Positions 7,985 through 18,476 of a stretch of 64,000 nucleotides of DNA are shown here, piece by piece. Position numbers and translations under genes: made by a program. This stretch comes from Neotamlana sargassicola (GTDB lineage: Bacteria; Bacteroidota; Bacteroidia; Flavobacteriales; Flavobacteriaceae), in the NCBI RefSeq assembly GCF_020523965.1, contig NZ_JAJAPX010000003.1, positions 434,001 through 498,000 on the forward strand, in the 5' to 3' direction. Position 1 is the first letter of the stretch; each line of letters opens with the position of its first letter. The notes beneath the pieces were generated by a model that did no database searches, had not been told where the DNA came from, and saw nothing but the letters and a program-made list of their open reading frames with translations.

Positions 7985-8058
7985 GGCGAGGTAGCTCAGT
8001 TGGTTAGAGCGTCGGATTCATAACCCGGAGGTCTCGAGTTCAAATCTCGATCTCGCTA
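7985..8058 (+). tRNA. tRNA-Met (anticodon CAT)
   Basis: A 74-nt cloverleaf. The acceptor stem pairs GGCGAGG with TCTCGCT (two G-U pairs), the D arm is GCTC-AGTTGGTTA-GAGC, the anticodon loop is TTCATAA with anticodon CAT, and the T arm is TCGAG-TTCAAAT-CTCGA. CCA is not encoded (CTACA follows). The anticodon stem closes with an A/C apposition. Elongator versus initiator is not fully settled, but a 5' G paired to the 3' end and no GGG/CCC anticodon stem argue for elongator. Confidence 0.95.
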
Positions 8059-8068
8059 CAGCAGTAAA

Positions 8069-8403: not shown

Positions 8404-8958
8404 ATGTACACAATAATTGATGTTGAAACCACAGGAAAAGGTGGAAAAATTACGGAAATATCTATTTTTAAATATGATGGTGAATTTATTATTGATGAAT
8501 TTACATCGCTAGTTAATCCTGAAACCTATATTCCCGAATATATTACGCAGCTTACTGGAATTACAAACGCTATGGTTGCAAATGCGCCTAATTTTAAACA
8601 AATAGCTAAACGTATTCTAGAAATAACTAAAAACAGTGTATTTGTTGCTCATAGCGTGAATTTTGACTACAATGTAATACGCAATGAGTTTAAAGCTATT
8701 GGCATAACATTTAATAGAAAGAAACTATGCACCGTAAAACTTTCTCGCCAATTATTACCAGGTCATAAGTCTTATAGCTTAGGACGTATTTGCAGCGATT
8801 TAAATATTGAAATTGCAGCGCGCCACCGAGCTCGTGGCGATGCTGAAGCTACGGTAATTTTATTTCATAAACTGTTGCATACAAAAAATGCTGAAATTGC
8901 TTTTAATGCTGCCCTAAATAAAACCGTTATTAAAAACCAATTGAGATTGGATTTTTAG
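8404..8958 (+). CDS. DnaQ-like 3'-5' exonuclease (DEDDh family)
   Basis: A 184-residue exonuclease of the Pol III epsilon type. DEDDh residues are visible: IIDVETTG (Asp6, Glu8), FVAHSVNFDYNVI (third Asp), and HRARGDAEAT (catalytic His and final Asp). Flavobacterial relatives often carry an additional C-terminal GIY-YIG or UvrC-like domain; here the protein ends just after the exonuclease fold (KNQLRLDF). It could be a stand-alone paralogue or a gene shortened by the neighbouring restriction locus, whose hsdR stop lies only 9 bp beyond, in convergent orientation. Substrate unknown; DNA repair is likely. Confidence 0.85.
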   Translation: MYTIIDVETTGKGGKITEISIFKYDGEFIIDEFTSLVNPETYIPEYITQLTGITNAMVANAPNFKQIAKRILEITKNSVFVAHSVNFDYNVIRNEFKAIGITFNRKKLCTVKLSRQLLPGHKSYSLGRICSDLNIEIAARHRARGDAEATVILFHKLLHTKNAEIAFNAALNKTVIKNQLRLDF

Positions 8959-8967
8959 GATATAAGA

Positions 8968-11841
8968 TTACCCAGCCATACCTTCTAAAAACACCTGCAC
9001 GAATTTCTTCATTTTTAAAATAATGCGCTCCCCTATTTCTCTAGCTTTTAGTATACTTGGTCTGTTATCTAGACATTTAAAAACCTCATCTCGTATAGGT
9101 TCTTGTCCGCTATACACATAACTATCTATTAATGCGTTAAACTGTAGTTGATCCAGTCCTTCTTCTTCGCATAGTTTTGATAATGCCATAACTTTTTCTT
9201 GTTGCCAGAACTTTTCAAACTCGTCTGGTATATCATCAGGATTTTCAATATGTGGTAGATTTTCTTCTATAAACTTCTCTATAAGTTCTCGTTTGCTACG
9301 TAACTCTACTTCGCCACCTAACAGATCGATAATAGCTTTTTTCTGTGCTTTTGCTTCTGATGGTTTTGACTCTTTTAGTTTAGCTAATAGCTGTAAAATG
9401 TAAGCGACATTAATTTCGTCACGATGTATTAACTCTAACTCAAAATCAATGTCATCAAGAATAGACGTTTTATGTTTTTGCTTGTCGGTTTTTACTTTAT
9501 CGTATAAGTCCAGGTATTTACTTTTATAATCCTCAAAAGTTTGCTCGTCAATACCTAAATCATCCCAATCGAAATCTACATAAGATTCCAACACGTTTTT
9601 AGCTCGTAACAAGCGCCTAAAGGCTGTAACAAATTCTAATTCTTGGTTTTCATCTTGTAAATCGTCAACACTTTGATAAGTTGGTGTAATTTGAAGTAGA
9701 TTGTTTAAGGCTTCATCAAATTTTGAAGCGATAGATTCATAAGGCGGCAAAATAATCTCTTCTTTGGCTTCTTTATTAGAAAACAACGTAATGGCTTCAT
9801 CTGTTGCGCCTTTTAAATTCCTGAAGCAAATAATATTTCCTTGCGATTTTTGTTCACCTAGAATTCGGTTGGTTCTAGAAAAAGCTTGTATCAACCCATG
9901 ATACCTTAAATTTTTATCGACATAAAGTGTATTAACCTTTTTAGCATCAAAACCAGTTAACATCATATTTACCACAATAACAATATCTAATCGGTCTTTG
10001 TCTTTAAAAGTGATTTTCTCTCGTTCTTTTAAACGCTTACTAATGTCTTTAAAATAGTTCTCGAACTGTTTACTGTCTTTGGTAGAAAAACTAGTATTGT
10101 ACATACTGTTATAATCAGCAATGTATTCGTCTAACTTTTCTCTAGTATGTTTACCATACACTGCACTTGGTTCTGCAGCTGCATCAAATTCATCTTCTGT
10201 ATCTGGTAAATAATCCTGTGCTGTTTTACTGTCTTCATTCGCACCAAAAGAAAATATGGTTGCTATGCGCAAGTTATGTTCTCCTGCTTCTTTTTTGCGT
10301 TTAAAAATACCGTAGTATTTTATTAGAACATCAATACTACTTACTGCAAATAATGCCGAATACGCTTTATTAAAAGTTTTAGAATTATGATAGTTTATTA
10401 TATAATCGGCTATTTTTTCTAAGCGTTTCTCATCTTGAAACACTTCTGCTTTATCAATATCTTCTACTTCAATATCAATAAACGTATTACTTTTTTGCTT
10501 GTATTTACCAATGTATTCTATACCAAACTTTAGTACATTACCATCTTTAATAGCATCTGTTATCACGTATTTGTGTAAGCACTTGCCAAATAAGTCTTTT
10601 GTGGTGCGCTTACCTAAATCGTTTTTTGAAGCATTATCTGCAAAAATAGGTGTTCCTGTAAACCCAAATAACTGACTGTTTGTAAAATAGTTGGTAATAA
10701 GCTCGTGCGTTTTACCAAACTGACTACGGTGACACTCATCAAAAATGATAACAATACGTTGGTTTTTTAATGCTGCTAATTGGTTTTCGTATCGTGTTTT
10801 ACTTATGGCGTTGTTTAACTTTTGTATGGTGGTTAATACCAATTTTGAATCGTCTGTAAGTTGTTTTACTAGACTACTGGTATTATTTGTAACATCTACA
10901 CTATCTTTTTTAAAGCTGTTAAACTCTTTCATGGTTTGGTAGTCTAGATCTTTACGGTCTACCACAAACAATACTTTATCTACTTGTGGTAAATCCATTA
11001 AAATCTGACTCGCTTTAAACGAGGTTAATGTTTTACCGCTACCTGTTGTGTGCCATACATAACCATTATCGTTACTAGTTTTTACTTGCTCTACCAATTG
11101 CTCTACTGCAAAGAATTGATACGGACGCAACACCATAAGTATTTTATGAGTTTCATTACGCACAATGTACTTAGCAATCATTTTACCCAAATGATCAGGA
11201 TTTAAAAACGAAGCAGCAAAATCTGTAAGCTCTTTAATATTTTTGTTATTCACATCGCTCCAAAAAAAGGTTTGTTTTACCGATTGCAACTCGTTATTGG
11301 CTAAATATTTAGTATTTACACCATTACTAATTACAAACAATTGCACGTATTGAAACAACCCATTGTTACTCCAAAACGTATGTTTTTGATAGCGGTTAAT
11401 TTGATTAAATGCTTCTTTAATTTCTAAACCACGACGTTTTAACTCTATTTGTACCAGCGGTAAACCGTTTACTAAAAGCGTAACATCGTAACGGTTTTTA
11501 TATACACCGTCTTGGGTGATTTGGTGAGTGACTTGAAATAAATTTTTAGACCAATCTTCGCTATTAAAAAACTGAATATAAGTAGGCTCACCAGCATCGT
11601 TAGTAAACTGAAACCTGCCTCGTAAGGTTTTGGCTTTGTCAAACACATTACCTTTTGCTAAGTGATTTAAAACGGTTTCAAACTCTTTATCACTAATTAC
11701 TAGATTATTAAAACGTTGTAATTGTTGTTTTAAGTTAGCTAACAACGCATTACTATCTGTTATTTTTACAGACGTGTAACCTAATCCAACCAGTTGGGTT
11801 ATTAAGTTTTGTTCTAATATAGCTTCAGATTGTGTGGTCAT
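8968..11841 (-). CDS. hsdR: Type I restriction enzyme R subunit HsdR
   Basis: A 957-residue motor and nuclease subunit that translocates unmethylated DNA and cleaves it. The N-terminal PD-(D/E)xK nuclease shows Asp119 in NRYDVTLLV, Glu133-x-Lys135 in QIELK, and the RecB-like QxxxY motif (QINRY, 147-151). The motor has Walker A TTGSGKT (265-271), DECH (368-371), FTGTPIF, and VNMMLTGFDAKKVNTLYVDK followed by QAFSRTNR. All catalytic parts seem intact, so the enzyme should be active. It is the last gene of the hsdM-hsdS-STAND-GGCT-hsdR operon, starting 8 bp after the GGCT gene. Confidence 0.97.
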   Translation of the reverse strand: MTTQSEAILEQNLITQLVGLGYTSVKITDSNALLANLKQQLQRFNNLVISDKEFETVLNHLAKGNVFDKAKTLRGRFQFTNDAGEPTYIQFFNSEDWSKNLFQVTHQITQDGVYKNRYDVTLLVNGLPLVQIELKRRGLEIKEAFNQINRYQKHTFWSNNGLFQYVQLFVISNGVNTKYLANNELQSVKQTFFWSDVNNKNIKELTDFAASFLNPDHLGKMIAKYIVRNETHKILMVLRPYQFFAVEQLVEQVKTSNDNGYVWHTTGSGKTLTSFKASQILMDLPQVDKVLFVVDRKDLDYQTMKEFNSFKKDSVDVTNNTSSLVKQLTDDSKLVLTTIQKLNNAISKTRYENQLAALKNQRIVIIFDECHRSQFGKTHELITNYFTNSQLFGFTGTPIFADNASKNDLGKRTTKDLFGKCLHKYVITDAIKDGNVLKFGIEYIGKYKQKSNTFIDIEVEDIDKAEVFQDEKRLEKIADYIINYHNSKTFNKAYSALFAVSSIDVLIKYYGIFKRKKEAGEHNLRIATIFSFGANEDSKTAQDYLPDTEDEFDAAAEPSAVYGKHTREKLDEYIADYNSMYNTSFSTKDSKQFENYFKDISKRLKEREKITFKDKDRLDIVIVVNMMLTGFDAKKVNTLYVDKNLRYHGLIQAFSRTNRILGEQKSQGNIICFRNLKGATDEAITLFSNKEAKEEIILPPYESIASKFDEALNNLLQITPTYQSVDDLQDENQELEFVTAFRRLLRAKNVLESYVDFDWDDLGIDEQTFEDYKSKYLDLYDKVKTDKQKHKTSILDDIDFELELIHRDEINVAYILQLLAKLKESKPSEAKAQKKAIIDLLGGEVELRSKRELIEKFIEENLPHIENPDDIPDEFEKFWQQEKVMALSKLCEEEGLDQLQFNALIDSYVYSGQEPIRDEVFKCLDNRPSILKAREIGERIILKMKKFVQVFLEGMAG

Positions 11842-11849
11842 AAAATAAT

Positions 11850-12461
11850 TTAAAATATCAATCCTTCTTCTTTTTCCCAGTCTCTAACATTTTTTCCATT
11901 TCCTAAAAAAGAGGTATCTAACCAAACCTCTAAAAACTTTTCTGAAACGTACCTGGAACCATCTCTACACAATTTATAATAAGGAACATTTGGTAATAAT
12001 TCATTATTAACTAATTGCCTACCATTAAATTTTTGTGGCGCTACAAGAGCATAAGCATCTGTAAATGGGGAGCTAGAGTTATAAAAATCTTGACAACGTA
12101 TTTTAACTAATGAATAACCAACCTCTCGTTTAACGAAATTTTCGAAATCACCTGTTTCCACTTTACGTAGCACTCCATTTGCTTTATCTTGTATATTACC
12201 AGTATATTCTAAATTAAATACTCCGAAATATTCGTCTCCGCGTTCTGGGTCATGGTAAATGGACCTGCTACGAACATTCTCATCTGGATCATAATTTAGT
12301 ACACGTTTTATCCCAAAACCCATAACAGGTTGTAGCTGAGTTGAATTGCTAATTGTTTCTTGTGAAGAATATTGATTTATCAAACTTCCATAACCAAATA
12401 AGTTAAACCCCTTACTTTCCTCTAGAAATTTTTCCCAAGGATATATTATTAAATCATTCAT
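11850..12461 (-). CDS. Gamma-glutamylcyclotransferase (GGCT/AIG2)-fold protein inside the hsd operon
   Basis: A 203-residue protein with the GGCT/AIG2 signature FGYGSLI (residues 22-28), the glycine-rich loop that holds the gamma-glutamyl group. EYFGVFNLEY (77-86) resembles the conserved second strand, and KREVGYSLVKI (111-121) matches the family segment that supplies the catalytic Glu (Glu113 here). By family, it would cyclise gamma-glutamyl amides to 5-oxoproline or process amide-linked peptides; the real substrate is unknown. Its ATG shares the A of the upstream STAND gene stop (TAATG), so translation is coupled, and hsdR starts 8 bp later. This suggests a joint role with the ATPase within the restriction locus. 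Confidence 0.7.
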   Translation of the reverse strand: MNDLIIYPWEKFLEESKGFNLFGYGSLINQYSSQETISNSTQLQPVMGFGIKRVLNYDPDENVRSRSIYHDPERGDEYFGVFNLEYTGNIQDKANGVLRKVETGDFENFVKREVGYSLVKIRCQDFYNSSSPFTDAYALVAPQKFNGRQLVNNELLPNVPYYKLCRDGSRYVSEKFLEVWLDTSFLGNGKNVRDWEKEEGLIF

Positions 12462-15184
12462 TATTTACTATGCACTTTTTTTAAACTATCAAATCTTTGC
12501 TTTGTTAATTTATACGACAACCAACCGTTACCCTCGATCCTCCCGACAAGATTTTTAGCTTCTTCAAAATTTATTAAAGACTCCTTTATTTTACCTTCTT
12601 TACTATTTATAAGGCCTAATATACATATAACTCTAAAATACCTCATATAACTATCGTAGCTGTTATTTTTAGCATATAAAATACTTTTATCACAATACAC
12701 TCTGGCTTTATCATACATTCCATACTTGTAATATAACTCAACTAACTCTGCCGATGCTAATAAAACAGATTCTACATATTTTATATCTCTTAATTTTCTA
12801 AAACTAATCAATAAGTATTGTTCTGCAACTTTAAAGTTTTCCGGACTTTCATTTTTACGACAATAAATTCTACCCAAACTAAGCAAATTTATCATAGACC
12901 AACCAAATGGCCCTTGAACCTTAAGTGCTTCAGAAACTTTCTCGGTGTAATGTAAACTTTTATCTAATTTATCTTGATCGCAATATAATAATCCTAAATT
13001 GGTATTAAACCCTAATATCCATCGATCTTCACCAATACCATTATACTTCTTTATTGCTTCAAGAAAATATCGCTCTGATTTTTCCGAGCTTCCATAACGC
13101 CAATAAAACATACCTGCAAAATTATAGGCTTGAGCTTGTTGCACTTTATAACCTTCCATAAGTTTTATTGTTCTTTCAAAATGTGTAATAGCATTCAACA
13201 TTTCTCCATTACGCTCGTACTTTCTTGCTTGTTCTAAAGTTATAAAGGCCATATTTAACTGTCCTAGTTTAACCTTATCAGATTCTGTAAATTTATCAAT
13301 TTTAGCAAGTATAGATTGTGTTAATTTATTATCTCCTATTTGACTTGATAAATAAGTGCCAATTCGGTAGGCCTCACCCAATAATTCAGATTTTATATTT
13401 GTTTTTTCCAATAGTTTTATTGCTTCTTCAATAAGCGGTAAACTATTTTCTCTTTGTTCTGTACTTTTAATAACTCTTGCCTTAGACATAAGTAACCTTG
13501 CTCTCTGTTCTTGGTCATTAGTTTTATCTAATAAAGGATTATAAATGTCTTCTAAAAGAATATAAGGACCAAACTCATTAAGTATTCTTTCTAAACACAC
13601 CAACATGTCTATTGCTAATTGTATGTGTGTATCGCTACTTTGCTCGATAAAATAAGTTATATTTTCATATTCTAACCTAATTTCTTCTTTCAACAAATCT
13701 ACATCTGCCATAATACTATTTTTTCCATGAATAAACTCATCTATTTCTTGCAACCTTTTATATGCAGCTAAATGAATGGCATGTACATAATCTTTAGAAA
13801 ATTTATCGCGACTATTTTCTTCGTTTATCCCTAATAATTCTCTAAAAAGAATAATTATTTCATATCTATTTCTAAGTCTGGGATGATACTTCTGATCTCT
13901 TAAAAAACTTCTTTTGTTTAAAATTATTACTTTTTGTTTGGTTTCGCTGCGATTAATAAAACCTTCCCAATGTGGCAGGTTATTAATAAAAAAACCATTA
14001 GGAAAATACATAAGATGCTTATAAAATTCTTTCTCTGTTTTAGATAGTTGTCCGTAAGTCCAATCAAAAACATTATAAAGCGATTTATGCCTATTACTAA
14101 ACTCTCGAAACAAATTTGGGATAGGTTTATTAAAATGAAATTTAAGATCGGATTGTATATCTTCAAAAGATATTTCGCTATGAGAACTAGAAGTTGCGAT
14201 TAAGTGTATTCCTAAAGGTAAGTTAGACACTCGATGGCATAACTCTACAATTATACGAAACTGCTCTTTAGAGAATTTATCGTTTTTATAATCTAAATCG
14301 TCGGTTAAACTATCTTGATTGTATAGTTTACAAAATAACTTTATTGCAGTATACTCCTTAGTTAAATCTCCTTCAAAATCACCAAATTCATGTAGTGGTA
14401 TATTAGATAATGGCTCCACCTTAAAATTAACACATGCTTCATCTAGATTTGTTCGACTTGTTATAACCACTTTAATAAGCTCATTATTATCTACAAGTGG
14501 GTTAATAATTTCACTAAAAATTTTTAAACTAAGTTCACTATTATCTAAAACTTGTTCATAATTATCTATAAAAATTATGGTAGGTCTTTGATAGTCTTTT
14601 GCAATAACACCGTAGTTTTTAATACGTTCTTTTGCTCCTAAAGCGGTATTTACTATTGTAATTTTTGTATACTTTAAAATATCGTTAGTTGTATCTGTAG
14701 GTTTGCGAATATCTTTACTATTTACATTTTCAAAATCCATGTAAATTTGGTTTACAAACTCATCATTAAGTAAGGTGGTACACACATACTCTACTAGTTT
14801 TGTTTTACCAATACCTGCTTCTCCCGACACTACAATAATTCTGTTTTTATTAGAACGAAGTAGTTTAGTGAGTTTATTTACATTATGTTCGTTTTCTACG
14901 TATTTATTAGAAGAGTTTGTAATTGGTATTCTTTTAGAGTGATCTATTAATTCACTAGTTACAGTAGCAGGATGGTTTTCTTCTTTTTTAATTCGAACTT
15001 TAAAAAACTCGATGCTTTCAACTAAATCTTTAAGCTTTGGCAAATATTTTAAAACAAAGTAAACAAAAACCAAAACACCAATTATTATAGATGCTAAAAG
15101 TGGTTTACTTGAAAAATAATTAAGTATATAATTTACTATATCGTTTATATCAAAATCTACTTGAAAAAATAAAAGATACATCAC
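12461..15184 (-). CDS. Membrane-anchored NB-ARC/STAND ATPase with TPR-like C-terminus
   Basis: A 907-residue protein. One N-terminal membrane helix (about 29-46) is followed by a STAND NTPase module: Walker A GEAGIGKT (121-128), Walker B IIFID (203-207), the arginine finger/sensor segment VVITSRT (239-245) and a GLPL-like box NLPLGI (321-326), the marks of NB-ARC/AP-ATPases. The C-terminal 400 residues are helical repeats with TPR-like periodicity (for example AYNFAGMFYWRYGSSEKSER and NLGLLYCDQDKLDKSLHY). STAND proteins are regulated switches used in plant resistance and in bacterial anti-phage defence (Avs). Lies between hsdS and hsdR; coupled by TAATG to the GGCT gene. A gap of 254 bp to hsdS may hold its own promoter. 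Confidence 0.85.
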   Translation of the reverse strand: MMYLLFFQVDFDINDIVNYILNYFSSKPLLASIIIGVLVFVYFVLKYLPKLKDLVESIEFFKVRIKKEENHPATVTSELIDHSKRIPITNSSNKYVENEHNVNKLTKLLRSNKNRIIVVSGEAGIGKTKLVEYVCTTLLNDEFVNQIYMDFENVNSKDIRKPTDTTNDILKYTKITIVNTALGAKERIKNYGVIAKDYQRPTIIFIDNYEQVLDNSELSLKIFSEIINPLVDNNELIKVVITSRTNLDEACVNFKVEPLSNIPLHEFGDFEGDLTKEYTAIKLFCKLYNQDSLTDDLDYKNDKFSKEQFRIIVELCHRVSNLPLGIHLIATSSSHSEISFEDIQSDLKFHFNKPIPNLFREFSNRHKSLYNVFDWTYGQLSKTEKEFYKHLMYFPNGFFINNLPHWEGFINRSETKQKVIILNKRSFLRDQKYHPRLRNRYEIIILFRELLGINEENSRDKFSKDYVHAIHLAAYKRLQEIDEFIHGKNSIMADVDLLKEEIRLEYENITYFIEQSSDTHIQLAIDMLVCLERILNEFGPYILLEDIYNPLLDKTNDQEQRARLLMSKARVIKSTEQRENSLPLIEEAIKLLEKTNIKSELLGEAYRIGTYLSSQIGDNKLTQSILAKIDKFTESDKVKLGQLNMAFITLEQARKYERNGEMLNAITHFERTIKLMEGYKVQQAQAYNFAGMFYWRYGSSEKSERYFLEAIKKYNGIGEDRWILGFNTNLGLLYCDQDKLDKSLHYTEKVSEALKVQGPFGWSMINLLSLGRIYCRKNESPENFKVAEQYLLISFRKLRDIKYVESVLLASAELVELYYKYGMYDKARVYCDKSILYAKNNSYDSYMRYFRVICILGLINSKEGKIKESLINFEEAKNLVGRIEGNGWLSYKLTKQRFDSLKKVHSK

Positions 15185-15234
15185 GTTATTTTAATTAATG
15201 GTTAAAACATGAAACTACCTTATTTACAAACGAA

Positions 15235-15299
15235 TATAAAAATTTTTAGAGATAATGCAGTTAAAACAGTTGACTGGTTTGTTGTATAAAAATTTTTAG
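15235..15299. repeat. 15-bp direct repeat upstream of the STAND gene
   Basis: TATAAAAATTTTTAG occurs at 15235-15249 and again at 15285-15299. Each copy has a palindromic AAAAATTTTT core. The position, 50-115 bp before the STAND start codon in the hsdS-STAND gap (15185-15438), suggests an operator. No exact TAnnTTTG box was found there. Confidence 0.4.
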
Positions 15300-15438
15300 T
15301 TTTTAAAAACAAAAAACTCATGCAATGGTATGTTTTTCAACTATTAACATTTAAATTAACAAACGTTTCATCGCTGCGAAGCGGCTTGGAGAAATACTTA
15401 TTTAGAAGTAGCCAAAATTTAAAATATCCCAAATTATA

Positions 15439-16638
15439 TTACACAAACATTTGCTGCAACAAGCCTTTTTTAAATTGTTGTGTGGCTTCTATTTGTTGGG
15501 TAACGGTTGCTATTTTGGTATCTATAGCGCTTAAATAGCTGGCGATTTTTTGTTGCTCTTCAGTTGATGGGAAATTAATCTTCATCTTTTTGAACATTGG
15601 AAGCCTTAAAGACTTGACAGTTGAACCAACTGATTGAGACAACAAGTAATTAGGGTGTTGAACTAAATGATAATAAATGAATTTTCCTAGACAATTTTCA
15701 AATTTCATAATTGCATATGTTCTCTGATGTAGGTCAAACTTTCCGATAAAATATTTTGGAATAAAATCCTGTCCTTCTCCGGGAACAATTACAGCCTCAT
15801 CATCAAATAAATAAATACTACTTGTTCTAATATCTTCTGACCTGTCAAAGAATGTGTATTCGCCATCCAATGACGAATCAACTCTATTGGAACTTCCTGT
15901 GGTAATGTAACTTACATCTCCCAACTTCTTCTCTTCCCAATTTGGGTAATCACTGCCATTATCTTGTTTAAAGCGTAGTTGTTGGCTAAACAGTTGTTGC
16001 ATCACGCCTTTTTTGTACTGCTCCAGTAGCTCCTTTTTTTGGTTGAGTTGCTGTAGTTTGCTATCTACTGCGGTTAAAAATTGGGCTATTTTTTGTTGTT
16101 CTGGTAGGGATGGAAGATTGATTTTAATTCTATAGAAATCGCCATGATTTAAATCTGGTATAGTAGATGTTCCAGCCAATTTAAGAATTGTGTGTTGAGT
16201 TCTATGGCTATTCAAAAAGAAAAATAAAAAATCTTTATCAACATGAGAATCAAATTTGATTTTGAAAAAGTTATTATGAAAAGCTCCTTTAACACCTGTG
16301 ACTACCTGACCTGTATTACCTGTCCTTGTCATTAAAATATCTTTTTCTTCACATAATACCGATTCTGGTGGATTGAGAATATAATATTTTTTTGTTGATC
16401 CTTCTTTTAAAAATTCATTGGTGATGTAAAAATGTGCATTTTCAATAGGTTCCAAATATCGATCGGCAATAGCTATTTGCAAACCTTGATTGATTTTAGT
16501 TACCTCTTTTAACGTTTTTTCGTTCCACTCACCATCAAATTCCTTAAAACGCAATTGTGGCACCAGTCTTTTAGGTGCTTTTAAAGCGATGGTGTCGTGA
16601 CTCGCCATGACGTTGGTATTGTTGTTTTGTGCTGCCAT
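15439..16638 (-). CDS. hsdS: Type I restriction-modification specificity subunit HsdS
   Basis: A 399-residue DNA-recognition subunit that dictates the bipartite target of the methylase and nuclease. Two target-recognition domains are each followed by a conserved coiled-coil repeat: EQQKIAQFLTAVDSKLQQLN near residue 183 and EEQQKIASYLSAIDTKIATV near residue 366. The N-terminal 20 residues (NVMASHDTIAL) look derived from a GTCATTGCGAGG-type repeat rather than from HsdS proper, which begins around PQLRFKEFDGEW. Start ATG at 16636-16638. A repeat-filled gap of 224 bp separates it from hsdM. Confidence 0.96.
   Translation of the reverse strand: MAAQNNNTNVMASHDTIALKAPKRLVPQLRFKEFDGEWNEKTLKEVTKINQGLQIAIADRYLEPIENAHFYITNEFLKEGSTKKYYILNPPESVLCEEKDILMTRTGNTGQVVTGVKGAFHNNFFKIKFDSHVDKDFLFFFLNSHRTQHTILKLAGTSTIPDLNHGDFYRIKINLPSLPEQQKIAQFLTAVDSKLQQLNQKKELLEQYKKGVMQQLFSQQLRFKQDNGSDYPNWEEKKLGDVSYITTGSSNRVDSSLDGEYTFFDRSEDIRTSSIYLFDDEAVIVPGEGQDFIPKYFIGKFDLHQRTYAIMKFENCLGKFIYYHLVQHPNYLLSQSVGSTVKSLRLPMFKKMKINFPSTEEQQKIASYLSAIDTKIATVTQQIEATQQFKKGLLQQMFV
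16586..16611 (-). repeat. Diverged repeat copy within the 5' end of hsdS
   Basis: Minus-strand GTCATGGCGAGTCACGACAC then CATCGC matches the dispersed GTCATTGCGAGGCACGAAGC-type repeat at about 21 of 26 positions. It encodes VMASHDTIA. Confidence 0.45.
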
Positions 16639-16657
16639 TTATAGGTTTGTTTGGTTT

Positions 16658-16850
16658 GCGTGAGGGATAGCAATGGAAATCCTTTTTGTGAGGTACGAGC
16701 AAAAAGATTGTAATGTATAGCCAGACCCTTGGGGCACGCCCAAAAAGGTTAGCATCTCGATACAATTTGCTCGTACCTCACAAATCACTCGATGTGACGG
16801 TTTTGAGATACAATTTGCTCCTACCTCGCAAATTACTTGATGTGACGGTT
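16658..16850. repeat. Composite palindromic repeat between hsdM and hsdS
   Basis: Two head-to-tail units of about 48 bp (16754-16802 and 16805-16850) share ACAATTTGCTCSTACCTCRC and GATGTGACGGTT. Bases 16692-16715 hold the same TTTTGTGAGGTACGAGCAAAA stretch inverted. The outer part, 16658-16684 (GCGTGAGGGATAGCAATGG then AAATCCTTTT), resembles the right arm of the 55804-55937 element. The interval interrupts the hsdM-hsdS gap and holds no gene; short frames through it are repeat-derived. Confidence 0.65.
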
Positions 16851-16862
16851 TGTTTTGCATTA

Positions 16863-18476
16863 TTAAAACGGTGTGTTTATCCCTAATTCTTTACAAAAGC
16901 CTGTTATTACGTCGTCGGTTACATCCATCTCTTTTTCTAGCTGTTGTAATTGCTGTGATACGGCTTGTAGGTCTACAGGTGCTTCTTCTTCAAAGGTGTC
17001 TACATAGCGTGGTATGTTTAGGTTGTAATCGTTTTCTTTTACCTCGTCTAGACTGGCTACATAGCTGTATTTGTCTATGGTTGCTGGATGCGTATCATGA
17101 GATCCAGAATCAAGTTCAGGATGACAATAAGTTCTATATGTTGAAACTATTTTATCTATATGTTCTGGCAGCAATACATTTTGGGTTTTTACTTTTTCAA
17201 AATGGTTACTGGCATCTATAAACAGGATGTTGTTACTGCGTGCGCTGGTATTTCGGTCTTTTTTAAGTACTAAAATACAAGTTGGTATACCAGTACCGTA
17301 AAAAATATTAGCTGGTAGGCCTATTACGGCATCTAACTGGTTGGTGTCTGCAATAAGGTATTGGCGTATGTGACCTTCGGCAGCACCACGAAACAAAACA
17401 CCGTGTGGTAATACACACGCCATAGTTCCGTTAGTATCTAACTGGTAAATCATGTGCTGTACAAAAGCAAAATCGGCTTTACTTTTGGGTGCCATTTTTC
17501 CGTATGGTGAAAAACGCTCGTCGCTTATAATAGCATCTGGGTTCCATTTTGCAGAAAATGGCGGATTTGCTACTATGGCTTCAAACTTAAGTTCGCTGTG
17601 TACTGGCGATGGGTTGACTAGCGTATCTTCGTTATAAATATCGAAACGTTTGTAATGCACGTCGTGCATAATCATGTTCATACGTGCCAAGTTGTACGTG
17701 GTTGGGTTGCTTTCTTGCCCATAAAAGGCGCCAACTTCGTTCACTTCCTTTGCCACACGTAGTAGTAAGGAACCAGATCCGCAGGTTGGATCGTACACGC
17801 TTTTAAGTCGGTCTTTGTCTGTAGTGACTAACTGCGCTAGTATTTTAGATACTTGTTGCGGTGTATAAAACTCGCCTGCCTTTTTACCTGCTCCACTTGC
17901 AAATTGCCCAATAAGATACTCGTAGGCATCGCCTAAAATGTCGCTTTCGGCATTGTCTACATCAAAATTTATGGTTTCTAAACGGTTTAGTATTTTTACT
18001 ATAAGCTCGTTTTTGGCTTCTTCGGTTTTCCCTAGTTTGCTACTAGTAAGGTCTAAATCTTCAAAAAGGTTACCAAAATCGTCTTCGCTCTCGCTCCCCA
18101 TAGTGCTTTGCTCTATGCTGGTGAGTACTTTTTGTAAATCTTCGAGTATAAACTTGTTTACGCCTCCAGAGTTACCGCGTTTGGCGAGCTCGCTAAACAG
18201 TTCGGTTGGTTTTAAAAAATAACCTAAAGCGTCTAACGCATCGGTACGTAAGGCATCTATAAGCACTTCTTCTTGCTCGTGCCCAATAACTTGATTGTAG
18301 GTTAAACCATCTGGCGCTAACGCTTTGTTGGCTTGTAGTATCATTTTACGGCTTAGGTATTTGTAAAAAATAAAGCCTAGTATGTAATCTCTAAAATCGT
18401 CGGCATCCATATTACCACGAAGGTCGTTGGCGATGTTCCAGAGTGTTTGGTGTAGTTGTTGTTGATTTTCGGACAT
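16863..18476 (-). CDS. hsdM: Type I restriction-modification DNA methyltransferase subunit HsdM
   Basis: A 537-residue N6-adenine methyltransferase subunit that works with HsdS to protect host DNA. It has the HsdM N-terminal helical domain (LWNIANDLRGNMDADDFRDY), the SAM-binding motif DPTCGSGS (229-236), and the catalytic NPPF (304-307). Near residue 451 the sequence CHPELDSGSH interrupts an otherwise typical HsdM region between HIDKIVSTYR and IDKYSYVASL; it is the translation of a palindromic repeat inserted in frame. It is probably tolerated because it lies in a loop past the methylase core. Promoter-proximal gene of the operon. By eye it is richer in G+C than the STAND gene. Confidence 0.97.
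   Translation of the reverse strand: MSENQQQLHQTLWNIANDLRGNMDADDFRDYILGFIFYKYLSRKMILQANKALAPDGLTYNQVIGHEQEEVLIDALRTDALDALGYFLKPTELFSELAKRGNSGGVNKFILEDLQKVLTSIEQSTMGSESEDDFGNLFEDLDLTSSKLGKTEEAKNELIVKILNRLETINFDVDNAESDILGDAYEYLIGQFASGAGKKAGEFYTPQQVSKILAQLVTTDKDRLKSVYDPTCGSGSLLLRVAKEVNEVGAFYGQESNPTTYNLARMNMIMHDVHYKRFDIYNEDTLVNPSPVHSELKFEAIVANPPFSAKWNPDAIISDERFSPYGKMAPKSKADFAFVQHMIYQLDTNGTMACVLPHGVLFRGAAEGHIRQYLIADTNQLDAVIGLPANIFYGTGIPTCILVLKKDRNTSARSNNILFIDASNHFEKVKTQNVLLPEHIDKIVSTYRTYCHPELDSGSHDTHPATIDKYSYVASLDEVKENDYNLNIPRYVDTFEEEAPVDLQAVSQQLQQLEKEMDVTDDVITGFCKELGINTPF
17102..17122. repeat. Palindromic repeat inserted in the hsdM coding sequence
   Basis: ATCCAGAAT-CAA-GTTCAGGAT is an imperfect palindrome with one mismatch and one G-T pair. 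It is read in frame as HPELDSGS within HsdM. Confidence 0.6.

Follow-up and report, generated by a model that had tools for sequence, protein, structure and literature searches.

A STAND ATPase and a GGCT-like protein in the hsdS-hsdR slot of a type I restriction operon of Neotamlana sargassicola: a candidate antiphage module

Why does a type I restriction operon of Neotamlana sargassicola carry, between hsdS and hsdR, one gene for a STAND-type ATPase and another for a small protein resembling gamma-glutamyl cyclotransferases (GGCT)? The window analysed here comprises 64,000 nucleotides (nt) of contig NZ_JAJAPX010000003.1 (positions 434,001 to 498,000), and its list of open reading frames (ORFs) contains five long ones on the minus strand in the gene order hsdM-hsdS-STAND-GGCT-hsdR, the order given in the original prediction, which had been made from the sequence alone. 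Our overall reading, which is tentative, is that the two genes make up an accessory module complete in itself, with a most probably antiphage role, and that this module occupies the variable slot for cargo between hsdS and hsdR and works as proposed below. Its tie to restriction is one of shared residence and probably of shared expression with hsdR.

The STAND gene (12461-15181, minus strand, ATG start) encodes an N-terminal transmembrane helix, a P-loop STAND-type ATPase and a C-terminal array of tetratricopeptide repeats (TPR), as assigned by Pfam, motifs and a structural model, and is followed by the gene for the GGCT-like partner (11850-12461, minus strand, 203 aa), which was identified from its ORF, its fold in structure searches and its relatives. 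The predicted junctions were read directly from the sequence: the STAND stop and the GGCT start have one nucleotide in common, within TAATG, and 8 nt separate the GGCT stop from the hsdR start. The STAND ORF runs from a GTG (12461-15184), but the ATG at 15181 is the likelier start because the homologue in Winogradskyella flava begins there.

Do the two proteins belong together? The GGCT-like protein was found in 3 of 299 drawn genomes of the family and the STAND protein in 3 of 397, the own genome being included in both counts, and the three genomes are the same. A genome-contig scan, whose reach is limited to close relatives, yielded 20 stretches and 2 loci; it missed the copy in genome G179 and gave GGCT homologues in W. 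flava (79%) and P. thermophila (63%). Four loci with the pair are thus known, all from Flavobacteriaceae: the window, W. flava (L005), P. thermophila (L006; genome G011 is very probably this one) and G179. In W. flava and P. thermophila the GGCT gene lies directly behind the STAND gene with a 4-nt overlap each, while G179 encodes a single polypeptide of 1093 aa with the order transmembrane helix, STAND, TPR, GGCT, in which the GGCT part sits at the C terminus of STAND. Because the two occur in the same three genomes, recur as a pair in W. flava, overlap by 1 or 4 nt and are fused in G179, we are highly confident that they form a real two-protein module, and the fusion is a strong hint of contact between them, whether physical or functional. 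The earlier claim that the STAND protein works with the GGCT protein is thereby strengthened. Chance also fails to explain the smaller gene, since its dN/dS ratio against W. flava is 0.12 (a rough value, as dS is 1.1) and the pairing recurs in 3/3 other loci.

The spread of the pair is patchy. Among the same-genus genomes listed, G173 has no GGCT and neither G173 nor G725 has STAND, and ten same-genus genomes listed around G179 gave no match. When 395 genomes each were drawn from the phylum and from the order (overlapping draws with identical listed rows, in which G011 and G179 need not have been included), profile searches found the own genome alone, and a draw of 198 genomes around G179 found G179 and G011. 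All draws were made within the phylum of the window, with genomes beyond it covered by the genome-contig scan alone. No match was obtained for the GGCT window protein among plasmids and phages, for the G179 GGCT domain among plasmids, or for the single GGCT protein and the STAND alignment among viral contigs. A 43-residue match of the GGCT alignment inside a 1404-aa phage ORF from the viral contigs was rejected as spurious.

Is the pair then a part of the restriction machine? The slot is bordered upstream by hsdS (15439-16638, minus strand, 399 aa; Methylase_S 4.5e-35) and downstream by hsdR (8968-11841, minus strand, 957 aa; TIGR00348 7.9e-146, EcoR124_C 1.4e-66). Related hsd loci were drawn from 36 rows in 32 of 149 genomes; the sample consists of all 17 non-window loci with an hsdR identity of at least 54%, and 18 weaker rows were left out. 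Genes on the same strand lie between hsdS and hsdR in 14 of these 17 loci and none in the other three, and the last cargo stop is at most 30 nt from the hsdR start in 11 of the 14 occupied loci. PADLOC matches at E<=1e-5 were obtained for the cargo of nine: DUF4268 in L043 and L055 (PDC-S11), Fic in L044, L045 and L049 (PDC-S24), KAP, PDDEXK_4 and RhuM-Fic in L047 (PifA-like KAP, PDC-S26), Abi_2 in L050 and L059 (AbiD), and a helix-turn-helix (HTH) gene and its neighbours in L056 (PDC-M64C). Those without a PADLOC match carry pentapeptide repeats (L046, L052), DUF3800 (L048), a gene of no recognised kind (L054) and, in L058, an inverted second hsdS, an integrase and another gene. The PADLOC scan covered this cargo apart from the second hsdS of L058 and, in L047, the RhuM-Fic gene and an ORF of 99 aa. 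None of the stretches of the 17 loci contains STAND or GGCT (tblastn, E<=1e-3).

The closest locus, L043, stems from another genus, with DNA identities of 92.9% for hsdM and 94.3% for hsdR (blastn). Parts of its hsdS resemble the window up to the stop codon, the similarity ends at 15438, nothing in the slot is alike, and similarity resumes at 11841, the start codon of hsdR. Such a pattern is to be expected if cargo was exchanged while the two ends stayed in place. With other cargo in 14 of 17 relatives, the pair in none and this break in similarity, we consider it very probable that STAND and GGCT sit in the slot as exchangeable cargo and are no component of the restriction machine.

The original prediction had instead let the STAND protein watch the restriction complex or phage at the membrane. 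PrrC of EcoprrI, an anticodon nuclease that guards the enzyme, is encoded within a type IC hsd locus (PMC12707154, PMC3874165). A guard of this kind, monitoring the HsdRMS complex and killing or arresting the cell when restriction is blocked, would fit the position of the pair inside the hsd operon, 8 nt before hsdR, and the EcoR124_C domain of HsdR, in addition to the PrrC precedent. Both PrrC and the pair are embedded in an hsd locus, but pairs like that of the window occur elsewhere without hsd neighbours: the 20 kb surrounding each of the three other pairs gave no match to HsdR, HsdM or HsdS (tblastn, E<=1e-3), none of the 17 related hsd loci has STAND or GGCT, and no anticodon nuclease domain appears among 25 of the 30 Pfam families listed for STAND, the GGCT-like protein having 0 families. 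A guard could still act in trans, as proteins with HSDR_N are encoded on other contigs of G011 and G179. Since the other pairs are found with no hsd genes nearby, guarding is the weaker reading and, in our view, highly improbable; of the predicted co-occurrence, the company of STAND and GGCT held in 3/3 other loci and the linkage to hsd in 0/3.

Further details of the slot and its relatives are recorded here as observations in their own right. L043 has a GmrSD gene between hsdM and hsdS (L043:5573-7255), a second cargo place in that locus. In L058 the inverted hsdS is followed by a phage-type integrase (L058:6989-9128), possibly an hsdS inversion switch. In L059 hsdR is present as two separate frames (L059:1010-3856), with the Abi_2 gene in the slot.

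What is the small protein? It gave no match in the Pfam, PADLOC and PHROG families or in a PDB profile search, and a GGCT alignment used as the query of a PDB profile search likewise gave none. At E<=10 the window protein has 0 Pfam families, another member producing one unrelated line (0.19), and the remaining lines were non-significant (PvGmGSTUG with PDB phmmer, E 0.68; ChaC in NCBIfam, E 0.037 and 13.5 bits at a cut-off of 480). The best structural match of its low-confidence AlphaFold2 model is the GGCT fold. Five PDB structures were matched at E<=0.001 (2jqv, 2g0q, 3cry, 2i5t and 2rbh; 6e-5 to 5e-4, probability 1.00), two from Arabidopsis and three human. 3cry and 2rbh are titled gamma-glutamyl cyclotransferase; 2i5t (LOC79017) we take to be the same human protein, and the Arabidopsis structures are presumably AIG2-like. 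Mouse AIG2-like/GGACT (1vkb) ranks seventh. Among viral models seven reached E<=0.001, two of them named GGCT/AIG2-like (best 6.5e-7) and the remainder unnamed or uncharacterised.

YGSL is the substrate loop of the GGCT superfamily, and the small protein has it as FGYGSLI (residues 22-28; 12378-12398, minus strand), invariant in 4/4 sequences and comparable to FGYGSLM in E. coli ChaC. Equally invariant is Glu113 of the motif KREVGY (12123-12125, minus strand), the candidate catalytic acid. With GGCT, AIG2 and ChaC proteins it has in common the best-matching predicted fold and the YGSL loop, and its invariant glutamate may be placed as in theirs; it differs from them in that no family model matches it, that it stands beside a STAND ATPase and that its host lacks both glutamate-cysteine ligase families tested. 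These families were not found in 3/3 genomes, W. flava being outside the test. We therefore judged it unlikely that the small protein acts on glutathione, as E. coli ChaC is annotated to do.

The STAND protein is better recognised by sequence. STAND ATPases combine a P-loop with Walker A and B, a TSR-type sensor and a GxPL motif, and Walker A GEAGIGKT, Walker B IIFIDN, TSR and NLPLGI are all present here, together with C-terminal repeats that form a superstructure. Walker A occupies residues 121-128 (14801-14824, minus strand), with G121 and G124-T128 invariant in 4/4 sequences. ATPase_2 (38.4 bits, cut-off 33.2) and TPR_12 (48.5 bits, cut-off 30.1) are matched in Pfam. A single hydrophobic stretch, residues 23-51 of the GTG-start protein (15032-15118, minus strand; Kyte-Doolittle maximum 2.38), is the predicted membrane helix, and a comparable maximum lies near the N terminus of all three relatives while its sequence diverges. 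The membrane stretch, the ATPase and the TPR array named in the original prediction were thus recovered, but its NB-ARC domain was not, as NB-ARC (E 0.0031) and the nSTAND models stayed under their cut-offs. The TPR-like helical array, the putative sensor, covers approximately residues 556-906 (12467-13519, minus strand; TPR_12 1e-12) and is the part of the AlphaFold2 model with pLDDT values mostly between 77 and 96 and few dips, whereas the mean over the whole model is 62.8 and residues 247-467 lie below 50.

Structure searches with the STAND model (Foldseek) returned TPR proteins as top matches (APPBP2, Rap). The STAND-TPR protein 6mfv ranked sixth with low TM-scores (0.23, 0.29), and MalT domain III ranked 49th, with a TM-score of 0.70 by target length, amid many TPR matches. 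A P-loop NTPase followed by a TPR array is common to the window protein and to STAND NTPases with TPR sensors, namely MalT, 6mfv (matched at low TM-score) and, among the NLR-like proteins of bacterial defence, Avs and bNACHT. From all four the window protein differs in that a single N-terminal transmembrane helix takes the place of a named effector or HTH domain and in that a GGCT-like protein is supplied separately or fused.

How would such a pair act? We infer its defence role, trigger, oligomerisation, catalysis, substrate and outcome as follows. The N-terminal helix would anchor the STAND protein in the inner membrane, and there the TPR array, either by itself or together with a GGCT protein bound to that end, would recognise an infection cue. 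The STAND domain would then assemble in an ATP-dependent manner, gather the GGCT protein and switch it on. The latter would cleave gamma-glutamyl groups off a substrate of the cell or the phage, though not off glutathione, and release them as 5-oxoproline, so that growth or phage production stops. Control of the GGCT protein by STAND, with a possible change in gamma-glutamyl metabolites, had already been put forward in the original prediction, and we share it as an inference. An antiphage role of the pair appears rather likely to us, and it is made plausible by the hsdS-hsdR slot of the relatives, which holds mostly defence-type genes. That the GGCT-like protein is the catalytic output is a more doubtful proposition, to which we now give slightly less credence than before, because the alignment of its candidate catalytic residue did not repeat.

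Several points weigh against this reading. The model of the small protein has a mean pLDDT of 60 and a pTM of 0.59, and the TM-scores of the five PDB matches, 0.39-0.47 by query length, are all below 0.5; the predicted GGCT fold has the best structural match and the loop on its side, and lacks a sequence family. In a first hhalign run Glu113 stood opposite the glutamate of GGACT at a non-significant score, with rows L001, L061, L062 and L063 starting past the YGTL loop. A repeat with the loop kept was again non-significant and did not reach Glu113, and the profile comparison with ChaC spans the YGSL loop only. All statements of invariance refer to the four known sequences. ATP-grasp proteins of PF02955 are present in 3/3 genomes. 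PADLOC gave no match with the GGCT-like protein or, at 1e-5, with the G179 fusion, and weak P-loop matches alone with STAND. Five of the 14 occupied slots have cargo with no PADLOC match, and most matches in the others are to PDC families. PDC families are candidates proposed from their neighbourhood, so the defence label of the slot may be partly circular. The neighbours of the P. thermophila pair are genes for a sulfatase, CstA, an FAD oxidoreductase, sigma/FecR and SusC/D-type proteins, which are not defence genes. Finally, the C-terminal position of GGCT in the fusion suits a sensor or regulator equally well.

This last point bears on the roles within the pair. STAND effectors are usually found at the N terminus, and the fused GGCT lies beyond the TPR array, at the usual sensor end. 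The GGCT-fold protein could therefore be a sensor or brake on the TPR end that binds either a phage protein or some ligand akin to gamma-glutamyl compounds, its loss or loading letting STAND assemble and damage the membrane with the helix as the weapon. The N-terminal hydrophobic stretch, kept in 4/4 proteins despite its diverging sequence, agrees with this, as do the Foldseek matches to Rap proteins and to domain III of MalT, which are TPRs that sense ligands. However, the single helix is perhaps only an anchor, and the YGSL loop and Glu113 are invariant in 4/4, as one would expect if the enzyme is active, although a purely binding protein might retain both as well. Judged from sequence conservation and gene architecture, the two invariant elements would argue for catalysis and the C-terminal GGCT for the sensing side. 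We regard the sensor or brake as unlikely, albeit a serious contender, and lean, with reserve, towards the GGCT protein as output.

Could the pair have nothing to do with defence? A MalT-like STAND regulator in the membrane, tuning a gamma-glutamyl salvage or stress enzyme and present in the hsd slot by chance, would be in keeping with MalT domain III among the TPR matches, with the setting of the P. thermophila copy amid sulfatase, SusC/D-type and sigma/FecR genes, and with the five slots that escaped PADLOC. Such a regulator is quite unlikely in our estimate: no DNA-binding domain is present among 25 of the 30 Pfam families listed for STAND, the spread is patchy, the slot content is mostly of the defence type and a HEC-05 (GmrSD-like) gene follows the G179 fusion. 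In W. flava a type IIG restriction enzyme is encoded approximately 6 kb downstream of the pair. Upstream of that pair lies a cyclase-like gene (L005:5846-6940) matched by PADLOC Pycsar cyclase models (1.4e-10).

As to expression in the antiphage module that we favour, 254 nt separate hsdS from the STAND gene (15185-15438, minus strand). Given this distance and the AT richness of the gap (GC content 0.248), it may offer room for a module promoter, and the STAND gene could use its own and pass transcription on to hsdR.

The remaining hsd gene, hsdM (16863-18476, minus strand, 537 aa), encodes the type I methyltransferase subunit (N6_Mtase 2e-109 and HsdM_N 5.7e-18 in Pfam; TIGR00497 5e-129), and the Pfam matches of HsdR, HsdM and HsdS alike are far above cut-off, which bears out the identities first assigned to them. 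The hsdM-hsdS gap (16639-16862) has a GC content of 0.415 compared with 0.327 window-wide and contains two near-identical stretches with ACAATTTGCTC. Within hsdM lies the peptide CHPELDSGSH (17097-17126), for which L043 has CHPELVSGSH in its own hsdM. The peptide resembles a repeat element translated in frame; a pattern search found no further copies of this type in the window. Adjoining hsdR is a gene for an RNase_T exonuclease of 184 aa (8404-8958). Its homologue beside hsdM in L059 has 445 aa with an extra C-terminal part, and the window copy may have been shortened at the hsd border. The sole tRNA found in the window (Met, 7985-8059) is separated from the operon, on its hsdR side, by some 0.9 kb.

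How does the pair compare with what has been described? TgvAB is a set of two genes embedded in a type I locus of V. cholerae that provides defence without HsdR activity, and both RloF and TgvAB are GmrSD-type genes placed between hsdR and hsdS (PMC11411939). They resemble the window pair as accessory genes inside an hsd locus and, as described there, differ as GmrSD nucleases without STAND or GGCT. Among the matches listed from the openly licensed literature we found no STAND-GGCT system, in agreement with the original prediction, which had named no described system with this set, and the main-text portions available of PMC7159879, PMC8195603 and PMC13092281 contain no mention of cyclotransferase, GGCT or AIG2.

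STAND proteins are already known, and so are defence genes lodged within hsd loci; new, as far as these searches show, is the GGCT partner. The pair may be an undescribed immune module. Possibly, though with considerable doubt, it represents a new class of STAND immunity in which membrane-anchored sensing is joined with gamma-glutamyl chemistry, the target being some molecule of phage or host and not glutathione; the class would exist in two-gene and one-gene forms and be shuttled via the hsdS-hsdR slot. If this is true, gamma-glutamyl chemistry would join the outputs, or the cues, of bacterial NLR-like proteins, and one would have in hand a small enzyme whose candidate residue can be tested and whose pairing is fixed by a natural fusion. 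The hsdS-hsdR slot itself is a simple place to seek undescribed defence genes, by anchoring on the conserved ends of hsdS and starts of hsdR and reading what lies between.

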